NCBI RefSeq assembly: GCF_025149945.1
Contig: NZ_JALXVH010000049.1
Span: 1-17,741, forward strand
Direction: 5' to 3'
DNA from: Kocuria sp. p3-SID1428
GTDB taxonomy: Bacteria; Actinomycetota; Actinomycetes; Actinomycetales; Micrococcaceae
Length of the DNA stretch: 17,741 bases
Shown: positions 281-17,741 of the stretch, piece after piece
Layout of the letters: every line of letters starts with the position of its first letter
Position numbering within the stretch: the first letter of the stretch is position 1
Program-made: the position numbers and the translations under genes
Notes under the pieces: model-generated
Seen by the model: the letters and a program-made list of their open reading frames with translations, nothing else
Databases searched by the model: none
Told to the model about the DNA's origin: nothing

Positions 281-1084
281 GAGGCGAGGTGGGCGATCGG
301 CCAGCTCCGGGCCGAGGGAGCAACGATCCAGGGCCTGGCCCGGCAGCTCGGCACCACCTGGAACACGCTCTGGTCCCAGGTCCAGCCCGTCCTGGCCCAG
401 GCCGCAGGCGATCCCTCCAGATTCGAGGACATGCAGGTCCTGGGCATCGACGAGCACATCTGACACCACCTCGACCCGCGCAGACGAGGCCCGAGGAGCT
501 CACCGGCATGGTCGATCTGACCCGTGGTCCCCACCCCACCGCCAGGCTCCTCGACCGCGTCCCCGGGTAGATCCGGCAGCGCCTACCGCGACTGGCTGGA
601 CGAGCGCGGCGAGGCGTCCGGCCACCGGGTCGAGATCGCAACGCTGGACCCGTTCCAGGGCTGCAAGAACGCGATCGATGACCAGCTCGAAGACGCGACC
701 TGCGTGCTGGACGCCTTCCACATCGTCAAGCTCGCCGGCGCTGAGGTCGAGGTCGCCTACCAGTGCTCCCAAGACGTCCGCGAAGTGTTCCACCAGCCCA
801 CCCTTCCCCGGGGTCGGCGCCTCGCCGAGCAGCTGATCGAGAAGGTGCCGTCCTGCCTTATCTCGGAGATCGCCAGGCTCGGGAAGACCCTCCGACGCTG
901 GCGGACAGCGTTACTGGCCTACTTAGATACCGACGGGGCGAGCAACGGCGGGACCGAGGCCATCAACGGAATCATCGAGCTCGGCCGCCGTATCGCCGGC
1001 GGGTTCCGGAACTTCGAGCACTACCGCCTCCGCATGCTCCTCATCACCGGCGGCCTCGACGCCTCACCCCACACGCAACTCTGA
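281..1084 (+). pseudogene. Broken ISL3-family transposase
   Basis: Reading across three frames gives a recognisable ISL3 (DDE) transposase. It starts near 281 with an RWAIGQLRAEG segment and continues through a helix-turn-helix-like RQLGTTWNTLW and a GIDEHI motif. A TGA at 461-463 replaces the Trp expected after GIDEHI. A frameshift near 493 precedes the EELTGMVDLTR segment, and a second near 567 precedes RSGSAYRDWLDER. The last frame carries TLDPFQGCKNAI, DAFHIVKL, LGKTLRRWR, SNGGTEAING and the C-terminal RLRMLLITGGLD, ending with TGA at 1082-1084. Between DAFHIVKLAG and EVEVAYQCSQDVR the usual middle segment is missing, about 50-60 residues from memory of the family. The N-terminal zinc-ribbon part and the left end of the element are also absent. 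It is a dead insertion-sequence remnant. Positions 1-280 upstream contain nothing I recognise. Confidence 0.85.
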
Positions 1085-2388: not shown

Positions 2389-2940
2389 CCGAAGTGGTCA
2401 AGTTTTGCGGAGTGTATCGCCCCGGAAACAATCGAGGCGGTCTCGGGGATGATTCATGCCAAGTTCGACGAGATGAGGGCCGAAGGAGCCGCCGAGCTCG
2501 CCGACCTTGCGTCCCGGAGAACCCAGCTCGAAGGCGAGCAGCAGAAGCCGCTCCAGGCCCACTACGCCGGGGCGATCCCGTTCGACCTCCTCAAGAGGGA
2601 GCAGGACCGGATCACCGCGTCATTGGAGACCATCGAGCACCGGATCACCGCGCACCACGGCAACTACGCCGCTGCTCGAGAGAACCTCGACGACTCCCTG
2701 AAGCTGTTGTCCAACGCCGCCGACATCTACGAGCACGCCGACGACGCGAACCGGCGGCTCATCAATCAGGTGCTGTTCGAGGCGCTCTACATCGACGAGG
2801 ACAACGACGTGCGCGTCGGCTACCTGAACCCGTACGACGGGCTGAGCTGGACCGCCGAAGCGAAGAAAATGGGCCAGGTGAGAACCGCGACCAAGGGCGG
2901 ACCCTTGGTCGCAAGTTCACACCTGACCCGTTTGGGGTGA
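2389..2940 (+). pseudogene. C-terminal remnant of a large serine recombinase
   Basis: From about 2389 the plus frame encodes the C-terminal coiled-coil part of a large serine recombinase/phage-type integrase. It has a charged heptad-like stretch (RRTQLEGEQQKPLQAHYAGA), then IPFDLLKREQDRI, and near the end NQVLFEALYIDEDNDV. All are family hallmarks placed after the recombinase and zinc-ribbon domains. The catalytic Ser domain and DNA-binding core are missing, and no in-frame start belongs to this part, since the open frame upstream of 2389 is unrelated. The stop at 2938-2940 overlaps the 3' end of tRNA-His. This suggests a relic of an integrative element inserted beside the tRNA. It cannot be catalytic. 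Confidence 0.8.
2887..2912 (-). terminator. Hairpin downstream of tRNA-His
   Basis: This is a perfect 11-bp inverted repeat (GCGACCAAGGG / CCCTTGGTCGC) around a four-base loop, CGGA. On the minus strand it begins about 20 bases after the encoded CCA end of tRNA-His, where a factor-independent terminator is expected, although no clear T-run follows. It also lies within the recombinase remnant's last codons. Confidence 0.55.
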
Positions 2941-3008
2941 GCGACGGGGGTTGAACCCGCGACCTCCTGGACCACAACCAGGCGCTCTGCCGACTGAGCT
3001 ACGCCCAC
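2936..3008 (-). tRNA. tRNA-His (GTG anticodon)
   Basis: The reverse strand folds as a 73-base cloverleaf. The acceptor stem GTGGGCG pairs with CGCTCAC, with one G-T pair. The anticodon stem CCTGG/CCAGG encloses the loop TTGTGGT, giving anticodon GTG. The T arm carries GGTTCAACC. An extra G at 3009 provides the G-1 typical of tRNA-His, the discriminator is C, and CCA is encoded at 2935-2933. It lies between orn and the island, and its 3' end meets the recombinase remnant. Confidence 0.96.
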
Positions 3009-3082: not shown

Positions 3083-3161
3083 ACCCATTCCGCGCCCCGG
3101 CGCGCGCACGATGTCGATCCCGTCACGTGCAGACCCGCAGGGGCGGAGGCGGCATGGGGGA

Positions 3162-3812
3162 TTAGTCCTCCGGCTCGTCCTGGGCGCGGCGCTGCTCGGC
3201 CAGGCGCCGGGCCGCCACCACCCGGGAGGCGGCTTCCTTGGCCTGCTCGGAGGAGGGGCCGGGGTCGTCCACGAACACGGCCTCGCGGTAGTAGCGCAGC
3301 TCGTCGATCGAGTCCTTGATATCGCCCAGGGCGCGGTGGTTGCCGGTCTTGTCCGGGGACTGGAAGTAGGCTCTGGGGAACCAGCGCCTGGACAGCTCCT
3401 TGATCGTGGAGACGTCGATGATCCGGTAGTGCAGGTGCTCCACGACCTCCGGCATGTCCCGGACCAGGAACGTGCGGTCGGTGCCCACGGAGTTGCCGGC
3501 CAGCGGTGCCTTTCCCGGCTCCGGAACCCATGTCCTGATGTAGTCGAGGACCTGCTGCTGGGCCTCCTCGATCGAGGTCCCCGACGGCAGCTTTTCCAGC
3601 AGGCCGGACTCGACGTGCATGTTCCGCACGAAGTCGCCCATCTGCTCGAGCGCGCCCTCCGGCGGCCGGATGACGACGTCCACGCCGTCGCCGAGCACGT
3701 TGAGCTGATCATCGGTGACGAGCACCGCGACCTCGATGAGGGCGTCGTCCGTCAGGGACAGACCCGTCATCTCGCAGTCGATCCACACCATTCGTTCATT
3801 AGAAAGAGCCAC
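3162..3812 (-). CDS. orn: Oligoribonuclease
   Basis: Orn is a cytoplasmic DEDDh-type 3'-5' exoribonuclease that degrades two- to five-nucleotide RNAs and pGpG to mononucleotides. With a GTG start at 3812 the protein has 216 residues. The DEDDh residues are visible: WIDCEMTG (Asp12, Glu14), NSVGTDRTFL (Asp112) and NHRALGDIKDS (His159, Asp164). The body is colinear with Orn throughout, followed by an acidic and Ala/Arg-rich tail of about 40 residues beyond the compact E. coli enzyme (about 180 residues). A GTG three codons earlier (3821) is in frame, but a TACAGT -10 box overlaps it. The GTG at 3812 lies exactly seven bases after that box, which favours a leaderless mRNA starting at 3812. tRNA-His lies downstream on the same strand, an arrangement I recall as common in Micrococcales. 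Confidence 0.95.
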   Translation of the reverse strand: MALSNERMVWIDCEMTGLSLTDDALIEVAVLVTDDQLNVLGDGVDVVIRPPEGALEQMGDFVRNMHVESGLLEKLPSGTSIEEAQQQVLDYIRTWVPEPGKAPLAGNSVGTDRTFLVRDMPEVVEHLHYRIIDVSTIKELSRRWFPRAYFQSPDKTGNHRALGDIKDSIDELRYYREAVFVDDPGPSSEQAKEAASRVVAARRLAEQRRAQDEPED

Positions 3813-3819
3813 GTCGGTC

Positions 3820-3825
3820 ACTGTA
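3820..3825 (-). promoter_or_regulatory. Likely -10 box for orn (leaderless)
   Basis: The minus strand reads TACAGT followed by seven bases and then GTG GCT CTT, the proposed orn start. This is the spacing seen for leaderless actinobacterial transcripts. The box overlaps the alternative GTG at 3821, so a transcript from this promoter could not use that codon. Confidence 0.45.
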
Positions 3826-3885
3826 GCCGCGGCGGCGGACAGCCCTGCATATCCGTCGCGGGGAGTCTCCGCCGCGGCGCCCCGG

Positions 3886-3891
3886 TAGGAT
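3886..3891 (+). promoter_or_regulatory. Likely -10 box for the mannosyltransferase gene
   Basis: TAGGAT is a strong actinobacterial -10 hexamer. Start of transcription would fall near 3898, giving a leader of about 70 bases to the GTG at 3969. It is divergent from the orn promoter 60 bases away. No clear -35 element is seen. Confidence 0.4.
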
Positions 3892-3968
3892 GACGGCCAC
3901 TGCGGGCGGCCCTCGCAGCACGACCGTGCCGCCCGACCGACCGTCAGCAGACCGCCGTGAGGGGATCC

Positions 3969-5531
3969 GTGTCAGAGACGACCACCGAGCAGCCTCCCGA
4001 GCCGGCGGCCGCCGGCTCGACGACCCCGCCGCGCTCGGCGCGCACAGAGCGGTCTATCCTGCGCTCCGTCGTCTTCGGGACTCTCGGATCCGTGCTGCTG
4101 ATGATCGGCTCCTACGGGGTCGGCTGGCTGGCAGGGGTCTCCGAGCTGCGGCGCAGCCCCCTGGTGATCGAGCTGCGCTTCACCACACCGGGCGCGATCC
4201 TGTCGATCATCCTGGTGGCGATCGGATCCATGATGCTGGTGCGCGAGTGGTTCCGCCTGGGCCAGAAGCTGCAGGGGTGGGGACCGGGCTCTCGCAGGTG
4301 GGTCACCGCCGCGACCATCGCATGGTCGGTGCCCATGGTCTTCTCCGTGCCGATCTTCAGCCGAGACGTCTACTCGTACATCGGCCAGGGCCGTGTGGCG
4401 GCTGCCGGGCTGAGCCCCTACGAGGCCGGCGTCTCCACGATCGAGAACTTCTTCCAGCTCGGTGCGGATCAGCTGTGGAGCGAGTCCCCGCCGCCGTACG
4501 GGCCGCTGTTCATCATGATGGAGCGGGCGATCGTCGGGATCACCGGCGCGGAGCCGGACTCGTCGGTGTTCCTGTTCCGCATCCTGTGCGTGCTGTCCGT
4601 GATGCTGCTGGCCTGGACCGTTCCCCGGCTGGCGCAGCGCCACGGGATCGATCCCACGCGCGCCCTGTGGCTGTCGACGGCCAACCCGCTGCTGCTGGTG
4701 AACTTCATCCTGGCGGTGCACAACGACGCCATCATGACGGCGCTGGCGCTGCTCGGCGTGTTGGTCGCTGCCACGTGGCGCGACTGGCGCGGGGGACTGG
4801 CAGGCACGGCGCTGGTGGTCCTGTCCATCGGCATCAAGCCGATCACCGTGGTGCTACTGCCGTTCATCGGGCTGCTGTGGGCAGGGCGAGGGGCTTCGTG
4901 GCCGCGGAAGTTCCTGATCTGGTTCCTGACGCTGGCCTGGGCGATCGCCGTGATGGCTGCGCTGGGCTGGATGTCCGGCTTCGGCTGGGGCTGGATCGAG
5001 GGCCTGTCGACCACCGGCACCTCGTTCATCTGGTACGCCCCGATCGGCCTGCTGGGCGTGGTGGTCGGTGGGATCGCGGGGCTGTTCGGCGGCGATGCCG
5101 GGGCCGCCAGGGGCTTCGTGCACTCCGCCGGTCAGGCGCTGGCGGTGCCGATCATCCTGTGGCTGATGTTCACGGGCCGAGACGAGCGCGTGGTGCGGCG
5201 CATGACGCTGGCCTTCGCGGCGATCGTCGTGTTCTCGCCCATGATCCAGGCCTGGTACGTGGTGTGGCTGATCCCGTTCTTCGCGGTGACCGGTATCCGC
5301 CCGGACTGGCAGACCGACGTCCTGCTCTTCCTGACCGTGTTCTTCATGATCTACGCGATCTCGGACCAGCTCGACGTCTTCCCGTACCTCGACATCGACC
5401 TGGGATCCGGCCGCACCATCGCCGCGGTGATCGGCGTGGCGTACGGGGCGTACCTCTGGTTCCTGGACCCCTCCACCCGACGCAGCCGGCGGACGCGGAG
5501 CATCGACCCGAATCAGCCCGTGGTGATCTGA
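3969..5531 (+). CDS. mptB: MptB-like polyprenyl-phosphomannose alpha-1,6-mannosyltransferase
   Basis: This 520-residue integral membrane protein belongs to the GT-C superfamily and resembles MptB/MptA, enzymes that add alpha-1,6-mannose from polyprenyl-phosphate-mannose to the lipomannan backbone at the outer face of the plasma membrane. A polar, Pro/Thr-rich N-terminus of about 30 residues is followed by about a dozen hydrophobic helices. The extracytoplasmic loop after the third carries FSRDVYSYIGQGRV, with the GT-C catalytic Asp at residue 133. ESPPPYGPLFIMMERA, TANPLLLVNFILAVHNDA and SIGIKPITVVLLP are further conserved-looking stretches. The GTG at 3969 is preferred because AGGGG ends four bases upstream; the in-frame GTG at 3957 has no such site. 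Micrococcales make lipomannan, so the role fits. MptA versus MptB cannot be decided by eye. Confidence 0.8.
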   Translation: MSETTTEQPPEPAAAGSTTPPRSARTERSILRSVVFGTLGSVLLMIGSYGVGWLAGVSELRRSPLVIELRFTTPGAILSIILVAIGSMMLVREWFRLGQKLQGWGPGSRRWVTAATIAWSVPMVFSVPIFSRDVYSYIGQGRVAAAGLSPYEAGVSTIENFFQLGADQLWSESPPPYGPLFIMMERAIVGITGAEPDSSVFLFRILCVLSVMLLAWTVPRLAQRHGIDPTRALWLSTANPLLLVNFILAVHNDAIMTALALLGVLVAATWRDWRGGLAGTALVVLSIGIKPITVVLLPFIGLLWAGRGASWPRKFLIWFLTLAWAIAVMAALGWMSGFGWGWIEGLSTTGTSFIWYAPIGLLGVVVGGIAGLFGGDAGAARGFVHSAGQALAVPIILWLMFTGRDERVVRRMTLAFAAIVVFSPMIQAWYVVWLIPFFAVTGIRPDWQTDVLLFLTVFFMIYAISDQLDVFPYLDIDLGSGRTIAAVIGVAYGAYLWFLDPSTRRSRRTRSIDPNQPVVI

Positions 5532-5690
5532 GGGCTCAGGCACCGTTCTGCGCGTCCCAGGGATCGATGACGGGGACGCCTAGGGGCATGGAGTCCCTGA
5601 CAGTGCGCGAGACGATCCATGTGCGAACGGCAGGGTCCCCGCGCCTGAACGTCCGCCGTGAGCGCGTGAGCCTACGGCAGCTCCGGTTGG

Positions 5691-5736
5691 TGACGGATAT
5701 GCACGCCATCAGCGCGGATGGCGTGCATATCTGTCA
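5691..5736. repeat. Long imperfect palindrome, possible dispersed repeat
   Basis: Arms TGACGGATATGCACGCCAT (5691-5709) and ATGGCGTGCATATCTGTCA (5718-5736) match at 18 of 19 positions around an eight-base loop (CAGCGCGG). It lies in the 289-base gap between the mannosyltransferase gene and tRNA-Arg, about 160 bases after the former's stop. No T-run follows on either strand, so a simple terminator is doubtful. A transcript-end hairpin, a regulator-binding palindrome or a REP-like mobile repeat are all possible. Confidence 0.7.
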
Positions 5737-5772
5737 CGAACCGCCTGCTCGCCGACTCGCCGCGAGAAGAGG

Positions 5773-5812
5773 CTGAGCCGCGACATCGTCTGTCAACGAT
5801 GTCGCGACTCAG
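5773..5812 (-). terminator. Hairpin downstream of tRNA-Arg
   Basis: Arms CTGAGCCGCGACATCG (5773-5788) and CGATGTCGCGACTCAG (5797-5812) pair at 15 of 16 positions around an eight-base loop. On the minus strand the hairpin begins eight bases after the 3' end of tRNA-Arg, the expected place for its terminator. There is no strong T-tract, as is common for actinobacterial terminators. It could also act on plus-strand transcripts. Confidence 0.6.
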
Positions 5813-5820
5813 GACCGAAG

Positions 5821-5893
5821 TGCCCCGGGAGGGATTCGAACCCCCGACCAAGAGATTAGAAGGCTCCTGCTCTATCCCCTGAGCTACCGAGGC
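5821..5893 (-). tRNA. tRNA-Arg (TCT anticodon)
   Basis: The reverse strand forms a 73-base cloverleaf. The acceptor stem GCCTCGG pairs with CCGGGGC, with one T-G pair. D-arm GCTC/GAGC, anticodon loop CTTCTAA (anticodon TCT) and T-arm GGTTCGAATCC are all present. The discriminator base is A and no CCA is encoded. The pair closing the anticodon loop is C31/T39, a mismatch. This tRNA reads AGA/AGG, rare codons in such a high-GC genome. Confidence 0.95.
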
Positions 5894-6120: not shown

Positions 6121-6720
6121 ATGTTCGACACCCTCACGGTCCGCGGCTTCGCCGCCACCAAGCCCGATCTCCGCAATCTTCCCGACGGCACTCCGGTGGC
6201 GTCGTTCCGCCTGGCCTCGACCCCGCGGCGCTTCGACACCGAGTCGAACTCCTGGGTCGATGTGGGCCCCACCAACTGGTACACCGTGACCTGCTTCCGC
6301 CGGCTGGCGGCGAATGCGGCGTCGTCGCTGAAGGTCGGCGACGCTGTGCTCGTGATGGGCCGGCTGCGCCTTCGGCCCTGGACCACCAAGGAGGGTCAGG
6401 AGCGGCTGACCGTCGAGATCGAGGCGACGGCCCTGGGCCCGGACCTGGCGCTGGGCACTGCCACCTACAAGCGCTCCGGCGCCGGTTCCGACAGCCCGCG
6501 CGGCGAGGGCTCGGACGCCTCGCAGCACAGCGACGACTGGGGCGACGGGTCCCGCTCGGTCGACCCCATGACCGGCGAGATCCTCGACGACGGGAACGAC
6601 GAGCACGACGGCCGCGACGGCTCCGGCTCCGATGCCGGGGGCAGCTCCGAGGACGCGCATTCGTGGGAGGGCGATCCGCAGGAGCTGCTGGCCGGTGCCG
6701 GGCAGGGATCCTCCTCCTGA
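6121..6720 (+). CDS. ssb: Single-stranded DNA-binding protein, second type
   Basis: The 199-residue protein has an N-terminal OB-fold of the bacterial SSB family (about residues 1-115): FDTLTVRGF, GTPVASFRLASTPRR, the ssDNA-binding strand region NWYTVTCFRRLAANA, then KVGDAVLVMGRLRLRPW and ERLTVEIEATALG. It should bind ssDNA as an oligomer during replication or repair. The remaining 85 residues are an acidic, Gly/Ser/Asp-rich disordered tail that ends AGQGSSS. It lacks the DDDIPF-type acidic tip through which canonical SSBs recruit partner proteins, so it is probably an accessory paralogue; the main ssb of Actinobacteria usually sits beside rpsF, rpsR and rplI. AGGAG at 6111-6115, five bases before the ATG, fixes the start. 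ettA follows on the same strand after 185 bases. Confidence 0.88.
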   Translation: MFDTLTVRGFAATKPDLRNLPDGTPVASFRLASTPRRFDTESNSWVDVGPTNWYTVTCFRRLAANAASSLKVGDAVLVMGRLRLRPWTTKEGQERLTVEIEATALGPDLALGTATYKRSGAGSDSPRGEGSDASQHSDDWGDGSRSVDPMTGEILDDGNDEHDGRDGSGSDAGGSSEDAHSWEGDPQELLAGAGQGSSS

Positions 6721-6765
6721 GTCGGTGTGCGGACAGCAGGTCCGTGCCGGGTCTGCAGGGCGCTC

Positions 6766-6811
6766 GCGGCGCCTCCCGCTTGGGTGCTCTCAGGGGCAGG
6801 GGAGGCGCCGC
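6766..6811 (+). terminator. Hairpin between ssb and ettA
   Basis: Twelve-base perfect arms GCGGCGCCTCCC (6766-6777) and GGGAGGCGCCGC (6800-6811) enclose a 22-base loop, starting 46 bases after the ssb stop. It may end ssb transcription. There is no T-tract and the loop is long, so this is only moderately supported. Confidence 0.4.
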
Positions 6812-6892
6812 CGGGGTGCGGAGCCCGGCCGAGGGGACTGGGCCCTGGGCAGATGCTCAGGCGGTTTGGCTCCGGCTGTCGTCCCCGACGGG

Positions 6893-6898
6893 TAGCCT
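6893..6898 (+). promoter_or_regulatory. Likely -10 box for ettA (leaderless or nearly so)
   Basis: TAGCCT fits TANNNT, and its last T lies seven bases before the A of the ettA ATG, so transcription would begin at or next to the start codon. The only ribosome-binding-like sequence, GAGGG, is just two bases from the ATG, too close for normal use. A TTGGCT at 6866-6871 is too far (21 bases) to be a standard -35. Confidence 0.45.
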
Positions 6899-6905
6899 GA
6901 GGGCC

Positions 6906-8588
<1,683 letters not shown>

Positions 8589-8620
8589 GCTGCTCTGCCG
8601 CGGTCCTCGCACCGCGCCCC

Positions 8621-8662
8621 GAGGGCCCGTCGTCATCCGGTGCAGGATGACGACGGGCCCTC
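8621..8662. terminator. Bidirectional terminator between ettA and the siderophore operon
   Basis: Perfect 17-bp arms GAGGGCCCGTCGTCATC (8621-8637) and GATGACGACGGGCCCTC (8646-8662) surround an eight-base loop. It sits between two convergent genes, 32 bases after the ettA stop and five bases after the stop of the last siderophore gene, so it can end transcription from both sides. No T-run is evident. Confidence 0.8.
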
Positions 8663-8666
8663 GTCG

Positions 8667-11513
8667 TCATGTGCGCTGTTTCGGATCAGCCGCGGCACCG
8701 CCCCTGGCTCGGGCGCGCTGCAGGGCCTCACGGGTCAGGAAGGCCAGCTGGGCGGTCTTGTCCGGAAGCCGGATCTGCGGGCCGAGCTCGAAGCCGGTGC
8801 GCTGCATCCTCCGCACCGCTCGCCAGTTCGAGGCATCGGGCTCGGCGACCACGCGCCGGGTAGCGGGGTCGGCGAAGAGGAACTGCGCCAGCGACTCCGC
8901 CAGGGCAGAGGTCAATCCGGGCTGCGGCCGCCGGGCCGGGGCGAGCAGCAGGTGCATGCCCAGATCACCGGCCCGCGGCAGATAGGCCCCGCCGATGGGG
9001 TCGGCGTGCGGCTGATAGGTCTGCAGCAGCCCCAGAGGGCGGTCCTCGAGCTCGAGGACCCAGGCGTGGTGGCTGTCGGCGGCTGCGATCTCGGCGTAGA
9101 TCGCCGAGACCGTCTCCGCTTCCAGTCCTCCCATGCCCCAGAAGACGGCGCGCGGTGAGCTGACCCAGCCGTGCAGCAGCTCGGCATCGGCCAGGGGATC
9201 CACCGGTCGCAGGCTCAGCAGGGGAGCGTCGGGGCCGAACCCGGGGGCACCGGTGGACTCCTCTGCGGAAGCGCCGACCGGAGCCTCGGACGTGACCTGC
9301 GCGGCAGGACGGCGCAGGTGCAGTCCTCCCAGCGGGTGCGGACGGTCAGTGGACGCCGGAGCCCCAGGCGGCACCCACGGCAGCGCCTGATCGATCTCGC
9401 CTGCCGCCCACCGATCGAGCGGTCGCGAGCCCAGCTGGCCGCGGTCCACGGGGTCCGGGGTGATCCATGCCGAGGCGGCCGGGTGCGCCAGGTCCCACAG
9501 CACCCGCACCGAGGGCACACGAGCGCAGCCTGCGCCCAGGCCCGGCAGCACGCCTGCGGCCAGCAGCGCATCGGAATCCCCGCCGACGGGCACGGGAGCG
9601 AAGGGCAGCAGCTGGTCACAGGCCCTCCACGGGGCGAAGGCGTGCTGCACTCCCCACGGAAAGCCGGACGGCCTGTCCAGCTGCGCCGCGAGCTCCTCGA
9701 GCGCCGCCTGCGCGCAGGGGCCGGGATCCAGCCCCAGCCCCGGGCCGAGGGTGACGATCGACTCGAGGGCCAGCCCCACCCGAGGGGTGGTCCCGAGCAG
9801 GGGATCCCACAGGGGCGGCAGGCCCGTGGCGCCGCGCAGCGGCTCGAGCGCCGGATGGCCCGCGAGGTGCCGGGCCAGCAGATCCCGCCACTGGGCTGCG
9901 TGCGCGGCGACGCCGGAGTCCGCGGCCATCTCCCCGTCCCACTCGAGCAGCTCCTGGCGCAGGGCCTCGACCTCCGTTCCTGCAACGGGGCTGGACGAGC
10001 CGGCGGCGCGATCCGCGCAGGGGCCGGCGGCGGGATCGACGGTCCCGCCGGCGTCGTCGTCGGAGTCCTTCTGCGCGTCAGCCGGAGCGAGCAGCGCGTG
10101 CACCAGACCCAGCAGGGACGACGAGCGCGTGTCCAGCTGGGCGCTGAGCAGGTCCTCCGCCGAGATCGCACCGCTGTCCCCGAGCGCCTGGCGCAGCAGG
10201 TGTTCTGCTCGCCGGGCGCGATGGGGAGGGGCGCACCCCAGGACGGACCCGGCCGCGATGGGATCCGGGGGCCGCTGATTGGCGCGGACGAGCAGGTCGT
10301 CGACGTCGCGGGGCTCGGGCAGCGGGCGCGAGGCCGCACCGATCACGGCGTGTACGCACCTGCCCGTCGTGTCGGCCGCGACCAGGTCGTTGACGGGCAC
10401 CGCCCAGCCCTGTGCCGCGGCCAGGACATCGGCAGCGGTGCCGGCGCCGAGCAGAGTGCGGCAGGCACTGAGGGCCGTGGCCGCAGAGCTTGGCGACAGC
10501 TGCTCGGCTGCCGTGCGCACGACCAGCACGGACGCGGTGCCGCCCTCGGGCAGGTCCGACAGTGCAGCCTCTCGCTCGCTGCTGCCGGGCAGGACCCGAC
10601 CCTGGCGGCAGCGACGAATCACGCGCAGTGCGCCGGTGCTGTCCCGGAACCCGGACTCGATGAGAGGCTCACCGGTCTCCTGCTGGACCAGCTGCCCGCC
10701 ACAGCGCACCACGGTGATCTCGGCGAGCTGCTCCGTGACGGCCATCGAGGCGGTGATCGCCCATGCCGCTGATTCCGTGCGCCCGAAGTGCGGGACGCCC
10801 GGCAGGCCCACCAGCGCCAAGCCCCGAACGCGCACACCGGGGCACGACAGGCACACCGGCTGGTAGGGCCCCGACTCCTCGACGATCCGGTGCGGATCGG
10901 CCGCGATCATCGGGGCTCCGGAGGCGCTGAGCCGCCCCGGGACCAGCCACGCATTGGATCCGGCCGTGCGGGGGCTCTCCGCGTCCAGGGCATCGAGCCA
11001 CTGCGCTCCCAGCTGCTCGCGGACCCGGTGGCGCCACAGCTGCTCCGGAAGGCTGCCTGCCAGCAGGTGCACGTCCAGGTGCACGGCGATCGGCGTCCAC
11101 GGATCCCAGGGCCGGGGCGGGCGATGGTCGAGTCCCAGGGACTGCACCTCGGGGCTTGCTGCCCAGGCCTGCGACAGCTGCGAGCTGACCCCGCGCGCGT
11201 AGCCGGCCAGGAACACGCGGTCCTGAGACCCGGCGGCCTCCCACCAGGACCGCGCCGTCTCCTCGATGCCGAGGGCGGCGCTGAGATGGTCGCCGTCGTC
11301 GTGCTCCGGGCCCAGCAGATGCCCGCTGCGGGATTCGGCCCGGGTGCGCAGGACCTCCAGCTGCCACACCCGGTCGCGGGCGGTCACGGCCCCGTGACCG
11401 AAGGCCAGCGCCTCGAGGTCGCGCGCCTGGACGTGCGGCACGCCGTGCGGGTCGCGGAACACGGCCCACCCGTCGCCGGAGAGCTCGCAGCCGTGCGGAT
11501 CGGGATCAGTCAT
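8667..11513 (-). CDS. Penicillin-acylase-type Ntn hydrolase fused to a DesC-like acyltransferase
   Basis: A 948-residue two-domain protein. Residues 1 to about 740 follow the penicillin amidase family. A short alpha-chain region includes FRDPHGVPHVQA and GHGAVTARDRVWQLE; then comes the self-processing site GSNAW with nucleophile Ser186, which would become the N-terminus of the beta chain. AADPHR (205-210), GLPGVPHFGRTESAAWAIT (236-254) and ANQRPPDP with a likely oxyanion Asn412 follow. No signal peptide is present, unlike most family members, so it should be cytoplasmic. Residues 765-948 form an IucB/DesC-type GNAT (Acetyltransf_8) with LGMHLLLAP (His854) and EPDASN (Asp893), the family's likely catalytic pair. 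Its ATG overlaps the desD stop (ATGA), so it is translated as part of the siderophore operon. The substrate is unknown. Acyl exchange on, or trimming of, hydroxamate intermediates is inferred from context. Confidence 0.88.
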   Translation of the reverse strand: MTDPDPHGCELSGDGWAVFRDPHGVPHVQARDLEALAFGHGAVTARDRVWQLEVLRTRAESRSGHLLGPEHDDGDHLSAALGIEETARSWWEAAGSQDRVFLAGYARGVSSQLSQAWAASPEVQSLGLDHRPPRPWDPWTPIAVHLDVHLLAGSLPEQLWRHRVREQLGAQWLDALDAESPRTAGSNAWLVPGRLSASGAPMIAADPHRIVEESGPYQPVCLSCPGVRVRGLALVGLPGVPHFGRTESAAWAITASMAVTEQLAEITVVRCGGQLVQQETGEPLIESGFRDSTGALRVIRRCRQGRVLPGSSEREAALSDLPEGGTASVLVVRTAAEQLSPSSAATALSACRTLLGAGTAADVLAAAQGWAVPVNDLVAADTTGRCVHAVIGAASRPLPEPRDVDDLLVRANQRPPDPIAAGSVLGCAPPHRARRAEHLLRQALGDSGAISAEDLLSAQLDTRSSSLLGLVHALLAPADAQKDSDDDAGGTVDPAAGPCADRAAGSSSPVAGTEVEALRQELLEWDGEMAADSGVAAHAAQWRDLLARHLAGHPALEPLRGATGLPPLWDPLLGTTPRVGLALESIVTLGPGLGLDPGPCAQAALEELAAQLDRPSGFPWGVQHAFAPWRACDQLLPFAPVPVGGDSDALLAAGVLPGLGAGCARVPSVRVLWDLAHPAASAWITPDPVDRGQLGSRPLDRWAAGEIDQALPWVPPGAPASTDRPHPLGGLHLRRPAAQVTSEAPVGASAEESTGAPGFGPDAPLLSLRPVDPLADAELLHGWVSSPRAVFWGMGGLEAETVSAIYAEIAAADSHHAWVLELEDRPLGLLQTYQPHADPIGGAYLPRAGDLGMHLLLAPARRPQPGLTSALAESLAQFLFADPATRRVVAEPDASNWRAVRRMQRTGFELGPQIRLPDKTAQLAFLTREALQRARARGGAAADPKQRT

Positions 11514-13402
11514 GGGCGGCTCGCCGCCTCGCTGCGGCGACCGTCCCCGATGCCGCCCTGGCTGCCGAATCCTCCTACTGCCGGGTCGGTGCCCCGGAAC
11601 TGCGCCAGCGGATTGCGGATCCGCCCCACGAGGATCTGCGATCCCAGCGGGTCCGCGAGGCTGACCATCGACTGCGGGTCGCGCAGCTGGAGGCGGTTGA
11701 GGCACGAGTGGGCGAAGTCCTCGCGGAAGAGATCGTGACCGCGCCACAGCTCGGGATGGGCCGCACGGTGCTCGTCGAGCACCTCGGCGGCCGCGCCCCA
11801 GAACCGCTGCTCGTCCAGGAGGCCGTCGTCGTGCAGCAGCGCACCCAGGTGACGCAGCACCCCGTCCAGGACGTCGGTGTACACGGACAGCTCCTGGGAC
11901 TCCGGCTCGATCAGGGTGCGGATGCGCTCGATCTGCGGAGGCAGGGGCTGATCATCCATCACGGCGATCTCCTCGCCGAGGTCCTTCCAGAACGCGCCGA
12001 CCGGCAGGCCGTCCTGCAGGCGCAGGATCACGTTCTCGCCATGGGGCATCAGCGCGATCGAGCGTGAGAGCAGCAGGTGCGCGACGGGCAGCAGGTAGAC
12101 CTTCAGCAGAGCACGGATCCACGTCTCGGCATCGACCCCGCTGCGCTCGATCCAGGCGCGCGCCAGCGGCACACCGTCGCGATCGGTGTGCAGGACCCCG
12201 GCGAGGCTGGCGGCCTGCTGGCCGGGGGCCAGCCGAGCGACCGGGGATTCCCGCCACAGCGCGGCCAGCTGCTTGGTGTGATCGCTGCGCAGCCCCGAGC
12301 GGTGCTGGGCATCGCCCACCCATCCCACGGCGCTGCGCTCGCGCAGGACCTCCACGCCGCACTCCCTGAGGACGGGGTCGGCCGAGACGATGTCGTCGAG
12401 CCAGTCGCTGATGGCGGGCATGGCCTCCATGTAGGCCGGCGAGAGCCCGCGCAGGAAGCCCATCGAATGCACGCCCAGCGCGGTCTTGGCGTAGTCGCGG
12501 GCCGGATCATCCATGTCCAGGAAGGTCCGCACGGACTGCTGGGCGCGCCAGCGGTGCTCGCTGGGGCCCACCAGGATCAGATCCCGGCGCAGGACGTCCG
12601 GCAGCATGCCGGGCAGGATCCGGTGCTCCCACTGCCAGGGGTGCAGGGGGATCGGCGTGTAGTCCTGCGGGTCCTCGCCCACCTCCCGCACGGCAGCGCG
12701 GAAGCGCTCGCGCTCCGGGTCCAGCAGGTGAAGCTCCATGTGCTCGCGGTCGTCCATCTCGCGGCCGAGCGAGAGGACGCAGCCGCTGCGGCGGGCGGCG
12801 AGCCACACCAGCGGGGTCGGCTCCGGAGCCTCGGGCGCCCACCGCTCCTGCTGGGCGGCGCCGAAGCCGATCCGGCCGGAGCTGGCGACGAACCCGGGGT
12901 GGCCCTCGTGCAGATGCTGCTCGACGAGCTCCAGGGGGCTCGCGGCGAGCTCGCGGGAGCTCGGTGCGGGTCGGGCCTGACGCCGGGCGGAGGTGAGCTG
13001 CGTGGCGGAGAGGTCCTCCAGGTACAGCGGCAGCACCCGGTCGGTGAGCCCGAGGACCTCGCGCAGATCCAGGATCGCCTGCTGCGCATCCAGGTCGCGC
13101 GGCGCTGAGCTGGGTCGGCCGTCGTCGGCCAGGCGCTGGATCGACGACGGGTCCACCCGCCAGTGCTCCAGCGGGTGGCGGCTCGCGCGGAAGCGCCAGC
13201 GCGGCGTGCCGGTGTGATCGTCCACGACCCAACCCTCCGCCTCCGGACGCGGCGCGAGGATGCGCTCGTGGGCGAACTCCGCGAACAGCTTGGCCAGGGT
13301 GAGCCGCTGCAGCTGCTCGGCGCCCTCGGCATCCAGGTTCGGGGCAGGCGTGGGTCCGGCGGAGCTCGCGGTCTCGGCTCCGGTCAGGGCGGTCGCGGTC
13401 AT
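11510..13402 (-). CDS. desD: Desferrioxamine-type siderophore synthetase DesD (IucA/IucC family)
   Basis: DesD is an NRPS-independent, ATP-dependent synthetase that joins N-hydroxy-N-succinylcadaverine units through acyl-adenylates and can close the macrocycle. The 630-residue protein follows the family closely: EGHPGFVASSGRIGF (166-180), the core LHPWQWEH (253-260), SVRT (290-293), KTALGVHSMGFLRGLSPAYM (306-325), LAALWRESPV (379-388), MPHGENVIL (452-460), KDLGEEIAVMD (473-483) and SCLNRLQLRD (566-575). The similarity to Streptomyces DesD is strong enough to favour that subtype over aerobactin synthetases. It is longer than DesD (about 595), with roughly 30 extra residues at the N-terminus and a Gly-rich 30-residue tail. 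AGGAGG lies seven bases before the ATG, which overlaps the upstream stop as ATGA. Confidence 0.93.
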   Translation of the reverse strand: MTATALTGAETASSAGPTPAPNLDAEGAEQLQRLTLAKLFAEFAHERILAPRPEAEGWVVDDHTGTPRWRFRASRHPLEHWRVDPSSIQRLADDGRPSSAPRDLDAQQAILDLREVLGLTDRVLPLYLEDLSATQLTSARRQARPAPSSRELAASPLELVEQHLHEGHPGFVASSGRIGFGAAQQERWAPEAPEPTPLVWLAARRSGCVLSLGREMDDREHMELHLLDPERERFRAAVREVGEDPQDYTPIPLHPWQWEHRILPGMLPDVLRRDLILVGPSEHRWRAQQSVRTFLDMDDPARDYAKTALGVHSMGFLRGLSPAYMEAMPAISDWLDDIVSADPVLRECGVEVLRERSAVGWVGDAQHRSGLRSDHTKQLAALWRESPVARLAPGQQAASLAGVLHTDRDGVPLARAWIERSGVDAETWIRALLKVYLLPVAHLLLSRSIALMPHGENVILRLQDGLPVGAFWKDLGEEIAVMDDQPLPPQIERIRTLIEPESQELSVYTDVLDGVLRHLGALLHDDGLLDEQRFWGAAAEVLDEHRAAHPELWRGHDLFREDFAHSCLNRLQLRDPQSMVSLADPLGSQILVGRIRNPLAQFRGTDPAVGGFGSQGGIGDGRRSEAASRP

Positions 13403-15387
13403 CGGGGATCCTCCTCGCTCGCGGGATCGACGGTCAGGGTGCCGGCCGACGGGCGCTCGGAAGCCGAGGTGCCCTCGGACGTCTCGGGCGCTGCGTCGGC
13501 TGCGGTGCGCTCGCGCACGGACAGGCAGGCGGTCTTCTCCGGCAGCTCGAGGGGTCCGAGCTCCCGGAAGCCGGCGCTGCGGTTCACGGCGCGGATCGCA
13601 TGGTTGGTGTCGTCCGGCTCCACGACGACGCGCTGGACGGACGGGTCGCTGAACAGCAGCCGCAGGGCCGCCGCCATGACGGCCGAGGACGTCCCGGGCA
13701 CCGGATCCTGGGCCGGGGCCATGAAGAAGTGCAGCCCGACGTCGCCGTCGCGCACGCACCAGTGCTCGGCCAGCGGGCTGCGTGCGGGGTCGTAGGTCTC
13801 CACGAAGCCGCGCCGCACCGGATGCTCGGGATCCGAGGCCACGATCTCCTCGACGAGCCAGGCATCCGTGTCATCGGCGCGCTCGATCGCCTCGAAGACC
13901 TCTCGGATCCGCTCGGGGCTTGCGCCGACGAGATCCCAGGCCCTGGCCCGAGGCCGGCTCAGCCACTCGTGCAGCGCGGCGCCGTCGCGCTGCGGGTCCA
14001 CCGGACGCAGCATGAAGCGGCGCCCGTCGATCTCGGCGCAGAACGGCTGGGCCTCGGCGGTGCGGGGGCCCCAGTGCTGCTGGGGCAGGCGGCCGAAGCT
14101 CTGGAACATGGTCCGCCGCTCCGTCCGATACGGCTGCCGACCGGCGACGTGGCCCAGGACGATCGCATTGCGCAGCGCGCCCATGCCCAGATCCGGGGCG
14201 GTCAGGGCGTGGGTGTGTTCGGTGTGGTTGAGCACGTGCAGGGTGCCGTCGGGGCTGGCCCGGTGCCAGCGGTCCGGGCTCAGGCGCCCGGCGCCGTCCA
14301 GGCTGAGCTGATCCCGCACGGGCTCCAGCCACGGCAGGGGAGCAGGGGCATAGCCGGTGCCGGCCACGACAGCGTCCGTCACGGTCTCTCGGCTGCGCCC
14401 GGTCTCGACCGAGCGCCAGGTCAGCAGCGTCCGGTCGTCGTGCGGGGCGGCGGCCACCAGCTCGGTCGCGCCCAGCAGCCGCACCGGGGCGCGACCGCCT
14501 GCCGCGCGGCGGACGTGCAGCGCCTCGTAGATCCGGGTGATCGTCTCGGCGGAGATGCCGCGGTGCAGCTGCGGCTGGGCGCGGTTGATCGCATCGCGCT
14601 GCTCCTGCGGAAGGGCCCGGAAGTGATCCAGGTACTCGGGGGAGGTCAGCTCGAGCGAGAGCTCTGAGTACTCCATGGGGTAGAAGCGCGGGGAGCGGGT
14701 GATCCAGTCCACGGCCGGGCCACGGGGATCTTCGAGCAGGTCGACGACGACCTCGGCGGCCGACTGCCCCGAGCCCAGCACGGTGACATGGTCCTGCCCG
14801 TGCAGCCGGTCCTGGTGGGTCAGGTAGTCCCCGGCGTGCAGGACCGCGTCGCCGACAGGATCCAGCGCCTTCGGCAGGGTGGGGACAGTGCCGGCGCCGA
14901 TCACCAGGTGGCGGGTCCACCAGAGCTGCTCGAGACCGTCGTCGTCGCGGGAGCGGACCTGCCAGGGGCCGGAACCCGACGGGCGACGGGCCTCGAGGAC
15001 CTCCTGGCCCCAGTGCAGCCCCGGCACGCGGGAGGCCGCCCAGCGGCAGTACGCGTTGTAGTCGCGGCGCAGCGGATAGAAGGACTCGCGCACGTAGAAG
15101 GAGTAGAGCTGCCCCGTCTCCTTGAGCCAGTTCAGGAACGAGTGCTCGGAGGTGGGATCGGCCATGGTCACCAGATCCGCCAGGAAGGGTACCTGCAGCG
15201 TCGCGTCGTCGAAGAGCAGCCCGGGATGCCAGTCGAAGCCGGGTCTGCGGTCCAGGAAGGCGGCGCGCACGTCCGACAGCGGCTCGGCCAGGCAGGCCAG
15301 CCCCAGCCCGAACGGCCCGATGCCCACGCACAGCAGGTCCAGCGGCTCGTCGGCGGAGCCGGTCTCGGCGGTGGAGTTCTCGTTCAT
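13399..15387 (-). CDS. desB: Cadaverine/lysine N-hydroxylase fused to hydroxamate acyltransferase (DesB-DesC)
   Basis: One 662-residue protein carries two siderophore steps. Residues 16 to about 425 are an IucD/SidA-type FAD monooxygenase. They include the FAD site VGIGPFGLGL (21-30), FLADLVTMADPTS (68-80), FYVRESFYPLRRDYNAYCRW (97-116), the NADPH site LGSGQSAAEV (204-213), and GTGYAP (343-348). LGMGALRNAIVLGHVAGR (400-417) closes the domain. Residues from about 455 to 630 are an IucB/DesC-like GNAT with GLHFFMAP (His553) and EPDDTN (Asp592). A disordered acidic tail follows. In Streptomyces DesB and DesC are separate proteins; here they are fused, so the unstable N-hydroxylamine may be acylated without leaving the enzyme (inference). 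The start overlaps the desA stop as ATGA, with GAGAGG upstream. Cadaverine rather than lysine is inferred from the desA neighbour. Confidence 0.92.
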   Translation of the reverse strand: MNENSTAETGSADEPLDLLCVGIGPFGLGLACLAEPLSDVRAAFLDRRPGFDWHPGLLFDDATLQVPFLADLVTMADPTSEHSFLNWLKETGQLYSFYVRESFYPLRRDYNAYCRWAASRVPGLHWGQEVLEARRPSGSGPWQVRSRDDDGLEQLWWTRHLVIGAGTVPTLPKALDPVGDAVLHAGDYLTHQDRLHGQDHVTVLGSGQSAAEVVVDLLEDPRGPAVDWITRSPRFYPMEYSELSLELTSPEYLDHFRALPQEQRDAINRAQPQLHRGISAETITRIYEALHVRRAAGGRAPVRLLGATELVAAAPHDDRTLLTWRSVETGRSRETVTDAVVAGTGYAPAPLPWLEPVRDQLSLDGAGRLSPDRWHRASPDGTLHVLNHTEHTHALTAPDLGMGALRNAIVLGHVAGRQPYRTERRTMFQSFGRLPQQHWGPRTAEAQPFCAEIDGRRFMLRPVDPQRDGAALHEWLSRPRARAWDLVGASPERIREVFEAIERADDTDAWLVEEIVASDPEHPVRRGFVETYDPARSPLAEHWCVRDGDVGLHFFMAPAQDPVPGTSSAVMAAALRLLFSDPSVQRVVVEPDDTNHAIRAVNRSAGFRELGPLELPEKTACLSVRERTAADAAPETSEGTSASERPSAGTLTVDPASEEDPR

Positions 15388-16940
15388 CGGATCCTCTCTG
15401 CGGTCTCGGCCATGTGGGGATGCGGCTGCGGGTCGCGCTCGGCCAGGACGGCCTCTCCGGCCCGGTGGACGTCGTCCAGGACGTCGCGCAGATCGCTGAG
15501 CTGCGCGGCGGGATTCAGCAGGGTGAGCTTGAGGCAGCGCTGACCTCCGACCACGGTCTCGGCGACCGTGGAGGAGGCCTCGTCCCACACCCGGCGCCGC
15601 ACCGGGCGCACGAGGGCCTGCGGGTCCGAGCCGTCCCGGGGCAGCCAGCGGAACAGCACCGTGGACAGCGACGGCTGCGCGAGAAGCTCGAAGCGCGGAT
15701 CGGCCTCGATCTCCCGGGCCGTCTCCTGCGCCAGGGCGCAGCAGCTGTCGAAGAGCTCGCCGATCCGCTCGGGTCCCATGGCGCGCAGGGTCGTCCACAG
15801 CTTGAGCGCATCGAAGCGGCGCGTGGTCTGCAGGGAGCGGTCCACCTGGTTGGGCTCCGGGGTGTCGGCCGGATTCAGGTAGTCGGCGTGGTGCGTGCAG
15901 TGCCGCAGCGTGCGGGGATCGCGCACGATCACGGCCGAGCAGGACACCGGCTGGAACCAGGACTTGTGAAAGTCGATGGTCACCGAATCGGCCTGCCCGA
16001 TCCCCGCCAGCCGCTGCCGCTGAGTCGGCGAGGCCAGCAGCCCTCCGCCGTAGGCGGCGTCGACGTGCAGCCAGGTCCCGGCCTCGGCGCACAGCTGGGC
16101 GATCCGCTCGAGCGGGTCGATGGCACCGCGGTCCGTGGTCCCTGCGGTCGCCACGACGGCGGCCGGGACCAGGCCCTGGGCGCGCAGATCCTCCAGTGCG
16201 AGCTCGAGGGCCTCGGAAAGCATGCGGCCGTCGTCGTCGACGGGCACCTGGACCACGGCATCGTCGTCCAGGCCCAGGATGTGCGCTGCGGTGAGCACCG
16301 AGAAGTGGCTCTGCTCGGAGGCCAGCAGCCGCAGCCGAGCCGCGCGCACGGGCCGGGGCTCGGCTCCCGGGGTCGCCGCGGAGCGCTCGAGCGCCTCGTC
16401 TCGGGCGAGCATGAGCGCCTGCAGGGTCGAGGTCGTGCCGCCGGGGGTGAACATGCCGTCGGCGCCGTCGGGGAAGCCGATGCGCTGCGCCGTCCAAGCC
16501 AGCAGCCGCCGCTCGATCAGGGTGGCCGAGGTCGACTGGTCCCAGGTGTCCACCGAGGTGTTCACGATCGCGGCCATGGTCTCGGCGGCAACGGCAGGCA
16601 CGGCCACCGGACAGTTGAGGTGGGCGGCGGTGCGCGGCAGATGGAACCACACGGCGCGGCGCAGCCAGAGCTCGTCGAGCTCGCCGAGCGCCGAGTCGAG
16701 ATCCCCGAGGGGACGGTCGAGGTCGATCGGGTCGATCAGGGCGGCGAGGTCGTCGAATCCGGCGGGGGAGTGCGCCGCGCCGGCCTCGGCGAGACGGGCC
16801 GAGGAGGTGCGCGCAGCGGAGGCGACGGCTTCGCGCAGCTGCGGAGCCGTGTCAGCGGCGAGCAGATCGCGCTGCGCGGATGCCGGGGCGACCGGGGGCC
16901 GGCCGGACGCGGAGTCGGTGGGATCGGGGGCTGGGGGCAT
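15384..16940 (-). CDS. desA: PLP-dependent lysine/diamine-forming decarboxylase DesA
   Basis: This group II (fold-type I) PLP decarboxylase should turn lysine into cadaverine, the first step of desferrioxamine synthesis. The 518-residue form has FNCPV-like HLNCPVAVPAVAAE, TSVDTWDQSTSAT (typical of the family), GMFTPGGTTS, a cofactor-stacking His in SEQSHFS (His212), TAGTTDRGAIDPL, HVDAAYGGG (Asp294, which contacts the pyridine N) and the Schiff-base Lys in DFHKSWFQP (Lys326). The first 30 residues are a low-complexity Pro/Ala extension. The ATG at 16940 with AAAGG 11 bases upstream is chosen; an in-frame GTG at 16988 would add 16 basic residues without a ribosome site. It is the first gene of the operon, about 100 bases downstream of an iron box. 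Lysine specificity is inferred from neighbours; related enzymes use DABA, glutamate or tyrosine. Confidence 0.93.
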   Translation of the reverse strand: MPPAPDPTDSASGRPPVAPASAQRDLLAADTAPQLREAVASAARTSSARLAEAGAAHSPAGFDDLAALIDPIDLDRPLGDLDSALGELDELWLRRAVWFHLPRTAAHLNCPVAVPAVAAETMAAIVNTSVDTWDQSTSATLIERRLLAWTAQRIGFPDGADGMFTPGGTTSTLQALMLARDEALERSAATPGAEPRPVRAARLRLLASEQSHFSVLTAAHILGLDDDAVVQVPVDDDGRMLSEALELALEDLRAQGLVPAAVVATAGTTDRGAIDPLERIAQLCAEAGTWLHVDAAYGGGLLASPTQRQRLAGIGQADSVTIDFHKSWFQPVSCSAVIVRDPRTLRHCTHHADYLNPADTPEPNQVDRSLQTTRRFDALKLWTTLRAMGPERIGELFDSCCALAQETAREIEADPRFELLAQPSLSTVLFRWLPRDGSDPQALVRPVRRRVWDEASSTVAETVVGGQRCLKLTLLNPAAQLSDLRDVLDDVHRAGEAVLAERDPQPHPHMAETAERIR

Positions 16941-17040: not shown

Positions 17041-17059
17041 TGAGGTTAGCCTAATCTTC
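17041..17059. promoter_or_regulatory. DtxR/IdeR-type iron box
   Basis: TGAGGTTAGCCTAATCTTC matches the 19-base consensus TTAGGTTAGCCTAACCTAA at 15 positions, including the whole central GGTTAGCCTAA. It lies between desA (start 16940) and the divergent reductase gene (start 17118), and TANNNT-like -10 hexamers overlap it on both strands (TAGGCT/TAACCT leftward, TAGCCT/TAATCT rightward). An iron-loaded repressor bound here would block both promoters. Confidence 0.88.
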
Positions 17060-17117
17060 CTGAGTGGCGGCTCACTGCGAGCTGGCCGGACCGGCAGAAC
17101 CCAGCGGGAGAGGGAGC

Positions 17118-17741
17118 ATGGCGAGGATAGAGAGTGCCGTGGTGCGTGCCATGGGGTCCATGGAGACCAAGCTCACAGTTCTGGGGCGGGAGGAGATCGC
17201 GCCGTCGTACCTGCGCCTGGAGTTGGACGACGGAGGCCTGTTGGCTCGACGGCCGACGCATCCGACGATGTGGCTGAGGCTATGGTTCGCCGACGGCGGT
17301 CGGGGCCACCAGCGAGCCTTCACCCTGGTGGATCCCGACGCCTCCGCAGGCCGCTTCAGCCTGGAGTTCGCTCTGCACGAGGGCGCGGCCAGCGACTGGG
17401 CGCGCCAGTGCCGTCCTGGCGACACGATCCGCGTCTCGCTGCTGGGCAGCAAGCCGCCCTGGGACGCGCGCGGCAGGCGCGGCAGGAGGACGGCGATCTT
17501 GTCCGATGCGCCGTTCAGCGGGCGCACTCTCGTGATCGGCGACTCCGCCGCGCTTCCGGCGATCAACTCGCTGCTCGAGTCCCTGGGCGAGGCTCCCGCG
17601 GAGGTCTGGCTCGAGCACCGTCTGCCCGAGGACCGGCAGCTGCTGCTGCACGAGGGGCCGAACGTGAGCGGGCACCGGGTGCACCGCGGCGACGACTCCA
17701 CCGGGGTCCGGGCAGTGCTGGAGAGCCGCGGGGCCCCGCGG
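17118..17741 (+). CDS. Siderophore-interacting FAD reductase (SIP/ViuB family), partial
   Basis: The first 208 codons are present; the gene continues past the window edge. The family reduces ferric siderophores in the cytoplasm with FAD and NAD(P)H to release iron. Visible features are a beta-barrel FAD domain with RAFTLVDPD (flavin-binding R-x-[FY]-T at about 66-69), SLEFALHEGAASDWARQCRPGD (about 80-101), then GSKPPW, and a C-terminal nicotinamide-type domain opening with VIGDSAALPAINSLLESLGE. GGGAG seven bases before the ATG at 17118 sets the start; later ATGs at 17151 and 17160 are possible. It is divergent from desA with a shared iron box, like DesF of Streptomyces desferrioxamine loci, and probably recycles iron from the siderophore made by this operon. 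No transporter or binding protein is in the window. Confidence 0.9.
   Translation, partial: MARIESAVVRAMGSMETKLTVLGREEIAPSYLRLELDDGGLLARRPTHPTMWLRLWFADGGRGHQRAFTLVDPDASAGRFSLEFALHEGAASDWARQCRPGDTIRVSLLGSKPPWDARGRRGRRTAILSDAPFSGRTLVIGDSAALPAINSLLESLGEAPAEVWLEHRLPEDRQLLLHEGPNVSGHRVHRGDDSTGVRAVLESRGAPR

Follow-up and report, generated by a model that had tools for sequence, protein, structure and literature searches.

Why a desferrioxamine operon should close with a single gene for an amidase joined to an N-acyltransferase is the question raised by this locus, which lies in a 17,741-nucleotide stretch of DNA from Kocuria sp. p3-SID1428 that was analyzed as a whole (hereafter the window). The reading that we consider likely is that the encoded protein, DesGH, is an acyl-swap fusion, in which the DesG half would desuccinylate and the DesH half would acetylate, giving the end unit of desferrioxamine B. 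The initial annotation of the window had listed such a fusion as seemingly unreported, which needs correcting, as desGH fusions and the acyl-swap model are both already described in PMC12161575. The additions made here are a double fusion in one Kocuria clade, an argument from the acyl pocket and the occurrence of orphan DesG. In a literature search, neither the double fusion (DesBC + DesGH) nor DesG in the three pathway-less genomes was found in print, and no mention of a DesB-DesC fusion was found in listings of open-licence papers.

The desGH gene and its operon

The desGH gene (positions 8667-11513, minus strand), delimited from the list of open reading frames and Pfam matches, encodes 948 aa in a frame with no internal stop, with the G domain preceding the H domain in that single continuous frame. 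The DesG domain, a penicillin-amidase-family Ntn hydrolase, covers residues 1-730 (9324-11513, minus strand), and its Pfam Penicil_amidase match begins at residue 18 (E 1.2e-82). It is followed by a linker of about 35 aa (residues 731-765; 9219-9323, minus strand; boundaries approximate) and by the DesH domain, a GNAT N-acyltransferase assigned from Pfam and tree placement (residues 766-948; 8670-9218, minus strand). The GNAT domain is complete, as residues 772-915 match positions 1-144 of the 145-position Acetyltransf_8 profile (E 4.2e-44). These matches bear out the initial description of one gene that joins a penicillin-amidase-type domain, with its GSNAW site, to a complete GNAT, and of one protein with both an amide-breaking and an N-acyl-making domain in frame.

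A frameshift or assembly error at the junction (about 9220-9290) had been set beforehand as the refuting test for the fusion. No frameshift was found there, and the DesGH copy of G001, the nearest relative genome searched, is 97% identical, also occupies a single frame and aligns with that of the window without gaps over 948 codons. The dN/dS ratios between the two copies were 0.148 for DesG, 0.134 for the linker (from only 4 changes) and 0.164 for DesH, and both halves are under purifying selection. Additionally, DesGH was matched in 12 genomes of the same genus, and ten of these carry the gene as a single frame; G012 has its copy divided between two contigs. It could be argued from the broken copy in one relative (G003, locus L110) that the fusion reflects a frameshift or a faulty assembly. 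Against this stand the selection on both halves and the recurrence of the fused frame in ten genomes of the genus and in further lineages, and we regard the probability of an artefact as negligible. An error at the junction itself was rejected on the conserved frame, the gapless G001 alignment and the dN/dS values, and DesGH is a well-supported natural DesG-DesH fusion.

The operon reads desA, desB-desC, desD and desG-desH, all co-directional and with desGH last. It comprises desA, a PLP-dependent decarboxylase gene assigned by Pfam (15384-16940, minus strand), a desB-desC fusion of 662 aa (13399-15387, minus strand) with an N-hydroxylase part (about 14068-15387) and a GNAT part (about 13468-14022), and desD, an NIS synthetase gene (IucA/IucC + FhuF) of 630 aa (11510-13402, minus strand). 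An ATGA overlap occurs at each of the three junctions (desA/desBC, desBC/desD and desD/desGH), so that desD is overlapped at both ends, which is in keeping with the translational coupling of desGH to desD proposed initially. The earlier assignment to a desferrioxamine operon also stands, but the fusion of the cluster's own DesC to DesB had been missed.

An iron-box-like sequence, TTAGGCTAACCTCA (17041-17054, minus strand), precedes the ATG of desA by about 100 bp; it matches without mismatch a 14-bp core (chance expectation 0.00) of the iron-box consensus. The full 19-bp consensus was not found in the window with up to 3 mismatches allowed. The core TTAGGnTAnCCT preceded desA in 9 of 11 loci of the same clade vs 0 of 6 other same-genus loci, and the site is a putative iron box. 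Adjoining it is a divergent gene for a siderophore-interacting protein (17118-17741, plus strand) that runs off the window; its listed reading frame opens at 17064, and the ATG at 17118 was chosen as the start. Directly 3' of desGH, between that gene and a convergent ABC-type ATPase gene (6663-8588, plus strand), sits a very stable hairpin with a 19-bp stem (8620-8663, minus strand; fold z-score -7.1). The hairpin has no T run, and a terminator scan found no terminator.

Identity of the two halves and the acyl pocket

The GNAT half had initially been called DesC-like. In a tree of 94 GNAT domains, a set that omits loci L099 and L105 only, one branch with an SH-aLRT of 100 parted 52 DesH from 42 DesC domains, a clean split that is partly expected given that the labels were assigned by better BLAST match. 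The DesG-fused GNAT of the window grouped with DesH, and the DesB-fused GNAT grouped with DesC. DesC was thus ruled out as the identity of the DesG-fused half, and the two halves of DesGH are orthologues of DesG and DesH. His854 (of a GxH motif) and Asp893 were found in 52/52 DesH. Position 831 was Gln in 52/52 DesH vs Glu in 42/42 DesC, and at position 903 all 42 DesC had Asn and most DesH a hydrophobic residue. By P0001 numbering, DesH and DesC differ at positions 831, 838 and 903 (window 8805-9023, minus strand) in a fixed or almost fixed manner. By this pattern the three positions are candidate determinants of acetyl vs succinyl preference, with the Gln831/Glu contrast being a correlate of acyl preference and not proof of it.

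For the DesG half, membership of the S45 family is indicated by the Penicil_amidase domain together with a Ser nucleophile at the processing site AGSNAW, both of which are present. Ser186 (codon at 10956-10958, minus strand), which follows AG and opens SNAW, is the predicted N-terminal nucleophile (beta-1). It was conserved in 57/57 DesG sequences and lined up with the residue that opens the beta chain in PDB entries 35sz and 4hsr, and by analogy with its family DesGH most likely cleaves itself before this residue. Asn412 and Arg432 were also conserved in 57/57 DesG, and Asn375 in 56/57. Asn412 and Arg432 would be the catalytic beta-chain Asn and Arg, their equivalence to N241 and R263 being assigned by motif. 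These residue counts omit L099 and L105 (same contigs as L032 and L031), L107 and L108 (contig pieces) and L110 (broken).

The residue that bears most directly on the acyl group is Arg209 (codon at 10887-10889, minus strand), placed at pocket position beta-24 from the DesG alignment and the table of PMC11241749. Arg occupied this position in 57/57 DesG. According to that source, beta-24 contacts penicillin in penicillin G acylase and is Phe in the E. coli enzyme; of the ten structures tabulated there, only two have Arg at this position, 4HSR (named in the PDB as a glutaryl acylase) and 7EA4 (a D-succinylase). Amongst 22 other penicillin-amidase-family proteins, beta-24 was Leu in 20, Phe in one and Arg in one, and the closest PDB relative of the lone Arg protein (P0031) was D-succinylase. 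These 22 were the ones, out of 31 control proteins, in which the position could be located; the counts come from rows read by hand, disregarding chance motif hits, and they differ from a scripted tally that took the last hit per row. Seven further loci had Leu (six) or Phe (one). The hydrophobic beta-24 that marks an aryl-specific penicillin G acylase is replaced here by Arg209. Such a basic pocket would accommodate the carboxylate left free on a succinyl group, although the residue is suggestive only, because two other glutaryl acylases, 1FM2 and 1KEH, carry Leu at beta-24 and have Arg elsewhere in the pocket (PMC11241749).

Among solved structures, the DesG half is closest to PDB 35sz, a 'Penicillin acylase family protein' (585 bits for its beta chain against the family profile), for which only amidase alpha and beta chains are listed, unlike the fused DesGH; a literature search for this structure found no paper. 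Both 4hsr (glutaryl-7-ACA acylase) and 7ea4 (D-succinylase) are, like DesG, Ntn hydrolases with an Arg at beta-24, and their names indicate dicarboxylic acyl substrates, but unlike DesG they are not siderophore enzymes. His242, present in 57/57 DesG, is inserted as a single residue by comparison with 7ea4, and 4hsr has it too.

No secretion signal was apparent from the hydropathy of the first 45 aa of DesG. The top Kyte-Doolittle 15-mer in this region scored at most 1.07 in P0001 and P0003-P0028, compared with at least 2.07 by the same measure in seven generic acylases that were hand-picked as controls. DesG is probably cytosolic by this measure.

The acyl-swap model and its alternatives

A published counterpart is that of Streptomyces coelicolor, which carries desJGH (DesG, SCO4049; DesH, SCO4050) and whose null mutants made about 1000-fold (desG) and 16-fold (desH) less desferrioxamine B and more E, as reported in PMC12161575. 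There, DesG was proposed to desuccinylate N-hydroxy-N-succinylcadaverine and DesH to acetylate the freed N-hydroxycadaverine, and desG-desH fusions were reported in S. atratus and in Micrococcus spp. CH3/CH7 with an argument from high local concentration. The S. coelicolor proteins and these fusions resemble the window in their kinds of domain and in their link to desferrioxamine, and the S. atratus and Micrococcus desGH are, like that of the window, fused in one gene. Unlike them, and as far as a comparison by description only can tell, the desGH of the window sits inside a desABCD operon beside a second fusion, DesB-DesC.

Applied to the window, the DesB-DesC fusion would make N-hydroxy-N-succinylcadaverine, and the DesG half, following its predicted self-cleavage, would hydrolyze this compound to N-hydroxycadaverine and succinate. 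The DesH half would then re-acylate the freed hydroxylamine, with acetyl-CoA as the most likely donor, and the resulting N-hydroxy-N-acetylcadaverine would serve DesD as the terminal unit for desferrioxamine B. Tethering of the two halves may let DesH act before DesC re-succinylates. Acyl exchange on hydroxamates, which the initial annotation had suggested, persists in this form as the best reading, with a hydroxamate precursor as its substrate. Desferrioxamine B is a drug for iron overload, and what sets its production against that of E is a practical question. DesGH adds an independent clue, a basic residue in the acyl pocket, to the desuccinylate-and-acetylate model of 2025, and as a compact two-domain protein it would allow a one-tube test of the acyl swap.

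The installation of an aryl or other unusual acyl cap by the fusion was the original desG hypothesis, as cited in PMC12161575, which also mentions aryl-capped desferrioxamines for some producers. An aryl cap had likewise been raised in the initial annotation and loses ground here, as the beta-24 Arg (not Phe) in 57/57 DesG favors desuccinylation over aryl capping, and the published mutant phenotypes also disfavor it. In addition, PMC12161575 records no arylated desferrioxamines identified in S. coelicolor, a desG carrier. Aryl capping as the main role was rejected on beta-24 Arg, read with the PMC11241749 table, and a capping function of any kind appears quite improbable. One further point in its favor is that penicillin G acylase, the best-known member of the family, takes a phenylacetyl group. 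Penicillin acylases can also transfer acyl groups to amines, which lends some plausibility to a direct exchange in which DesG would pass its acyl-enzyme to another amine and not to water, with no free N-hydroxycadaverine being formed. The attached acyltransferase, of a CoA-dependent type, would then be unnecessary, and we consider direct exchange very improbable.

Editing or recycling, in which DesG would cleave mis-acylated monomers or desferrioxamines, whether taken up or self-made, with DesH re-acylating the products, is also unlikely, though less so than capping or direct exchange. It draws support from three genomes that lack the pathway yet keep DesG with all tabulated pocket and catalytic residues. 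On the other side, desG closes the biosynthetic operon here, and the loss of desferrioxamine B with a gain of E in the S. coelicolor desG mutant fits a biosynthetic role (PMC12161575).

Beyond the acyl swap, a broader idea can be offered tentatively, as a possibility that we would not call probable: each acyltransferase would be tied to the supplier of its reactive substrate, DesC to DesB for making and succinylating N-hydroxycadaverine and DesH to DesG for stripping and acetylating it, with free N-hydroxycadaverine kept scarce; translational coupling would set the DesBC:DesGH ratio, hence that of desferrioxamine E to B; and orphan DesG would hydrolyze scavenged hydroxamates. The double fusion in the Kocuria clade suggests that a reactive hydroxylamine is handled by tethering. 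A precedent by analogy for the DesB-DesC part is the Schizosaccharomyces pombe pair Sib2-Sib3, an N-hydroxylase physically associated with a hydroxylamine acyltransferase (PMC11424930), which consists of two binding proteins rather than a fusion and parallels DesB-DesC rather than DesG-DesH. Nothing usable on Kocuria siderophore chemistry was found in the literature, including the available part of PMC10052678.

Fusions and orphan DesG across loci

The search for the two-domain architecture that had been recommended returned G-H fusions in 18 of 50 junctions among 63 loci, counted without the same five loci that were left out of the DesG residue counts and with A-B and G-H pairs included where they lie on the opposite strand from the remainder of their locus. 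The other acyltransferase junctions were fused in 11/38 (B-C) and 16/40 (C-D) cases, whereas junctions between non-acyltransferase genes were never fused (A-B 0/43, D-G 0/30, G-A 0/1). A Fisher test of 45/128 vs 0/74 gave p 5e-11, a value that ignores relatedness and is to be read only beside the lineage counts of fusion changes. On a quick GNAT tree these were 1 for B-C, 5 for C-D and 7 for G-H, and on a quick DesG tree G-H required 6, of which 5 were forced by starred branches. With 6 or 7 changes needed, the G-H fusion was gained or lost several times, and fusions of neighboring genes can arise without advantage. A scan of named genomes yielded only 8 loci, and a profile search of proteins brought in no further named DesGH fusion from outside Kocuria.

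The C-D fusion was seen in L111-L116, L033-L038, L117, L122, L127 and L135. It matches DfoC from Erwinia (PDB 5o7o), in which, as in DesGH, a hydroxamate acyltransferase is naturally joined to a second enzyme of the desferrioxamine pathway; the partners there are acyltransferase and synthetase (DesC-DesD), not DesG and DesH. P0029 (781 aa), with IucA/IucC, FhuF and Acetyltransf_8 domains, is a further acyltransferase-synthetase fusion.

Among 27 same-genus genomes searched, 12 had a DesGH match, six had a DesC-type match without one of DesG strength, and nine had neither, with one weak amidase match among these nine. All 12 with DesGH carry the DesB end and DesC in one frame, and in the six DesC is fused to DesD instead and DesGH is absent from the locus. 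In the samples searched, an uninterrupted DesB-DesC match was confined to the genus of the window. A family-wide sample of 197 genomes gave 84 with a match, seven of which showed it uninterrupted; a class-wide sample of 296 gave 108 genomes with a match of DesB strength, and G001 alone among them showed it, although strongly diverged fusions could appear there as two pieces. In G184 and G209 the match spans DesB and DesC with a stop inside. In G003, desGH and part of desB are broken into several frames, with the DesB start in a different frame from the DesB end and DesC; this assembly is 79% complete, and the broken copy could be an assembly error.

Three genomes of one genus (G293, G355 and G447; loci L130, L132 and L133), each estimated to be 100% complete, keep DesG with every tabulated catalytic and pocket residue intact. 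The IucA/IucC synthetase (DesD) was found in 0/3 of them vs 3/3 sister genomes. Their best hydroxylase match had an E of 1.2e-9, short of DesB strength, compared with 7e-112 or better in the sisters, and their best GNAT match (3.8e-17) was short of DesC/DesH strength, each sister genome having two DesC/DesH-type GNATs at 2e-40 or better. The neighbors of the orphan gene are an amine-oxidase-like flavoprotein gene and, in two of the three genomes, a histidine kinase gene. The locus is common to the three sisters, with the amine-oxidase-like gene in 6/6 and the histidine kinase in 5/6. In family f22, loci L136-L138 likewise have DesG without DesH within the stretch covered. Together with the orphan genomes, these loci suggest that DesG probably serves some other purpose in such settings or else persists as a relic; in the three orphan genomes it would be another role or a young relic.

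Elsewhere in the window, two large reading frames (3111-3893 and 3890-5776, plus strand) drew no match from Pfam even at an E value of 1 and resemble translations in the wrong frame. Other features are a partial DDE_Tnp_ISL3 transposase match by Pfam (524-1084, plus strand), tRNA-His and tRNA-Arg genes (2933-3008 and 5820-5893, both minus strand), an RNase_T exonuclease gene (3162-3821, minus strand) and a gene for a single-strand binding protein (6121-6720, plus strand).
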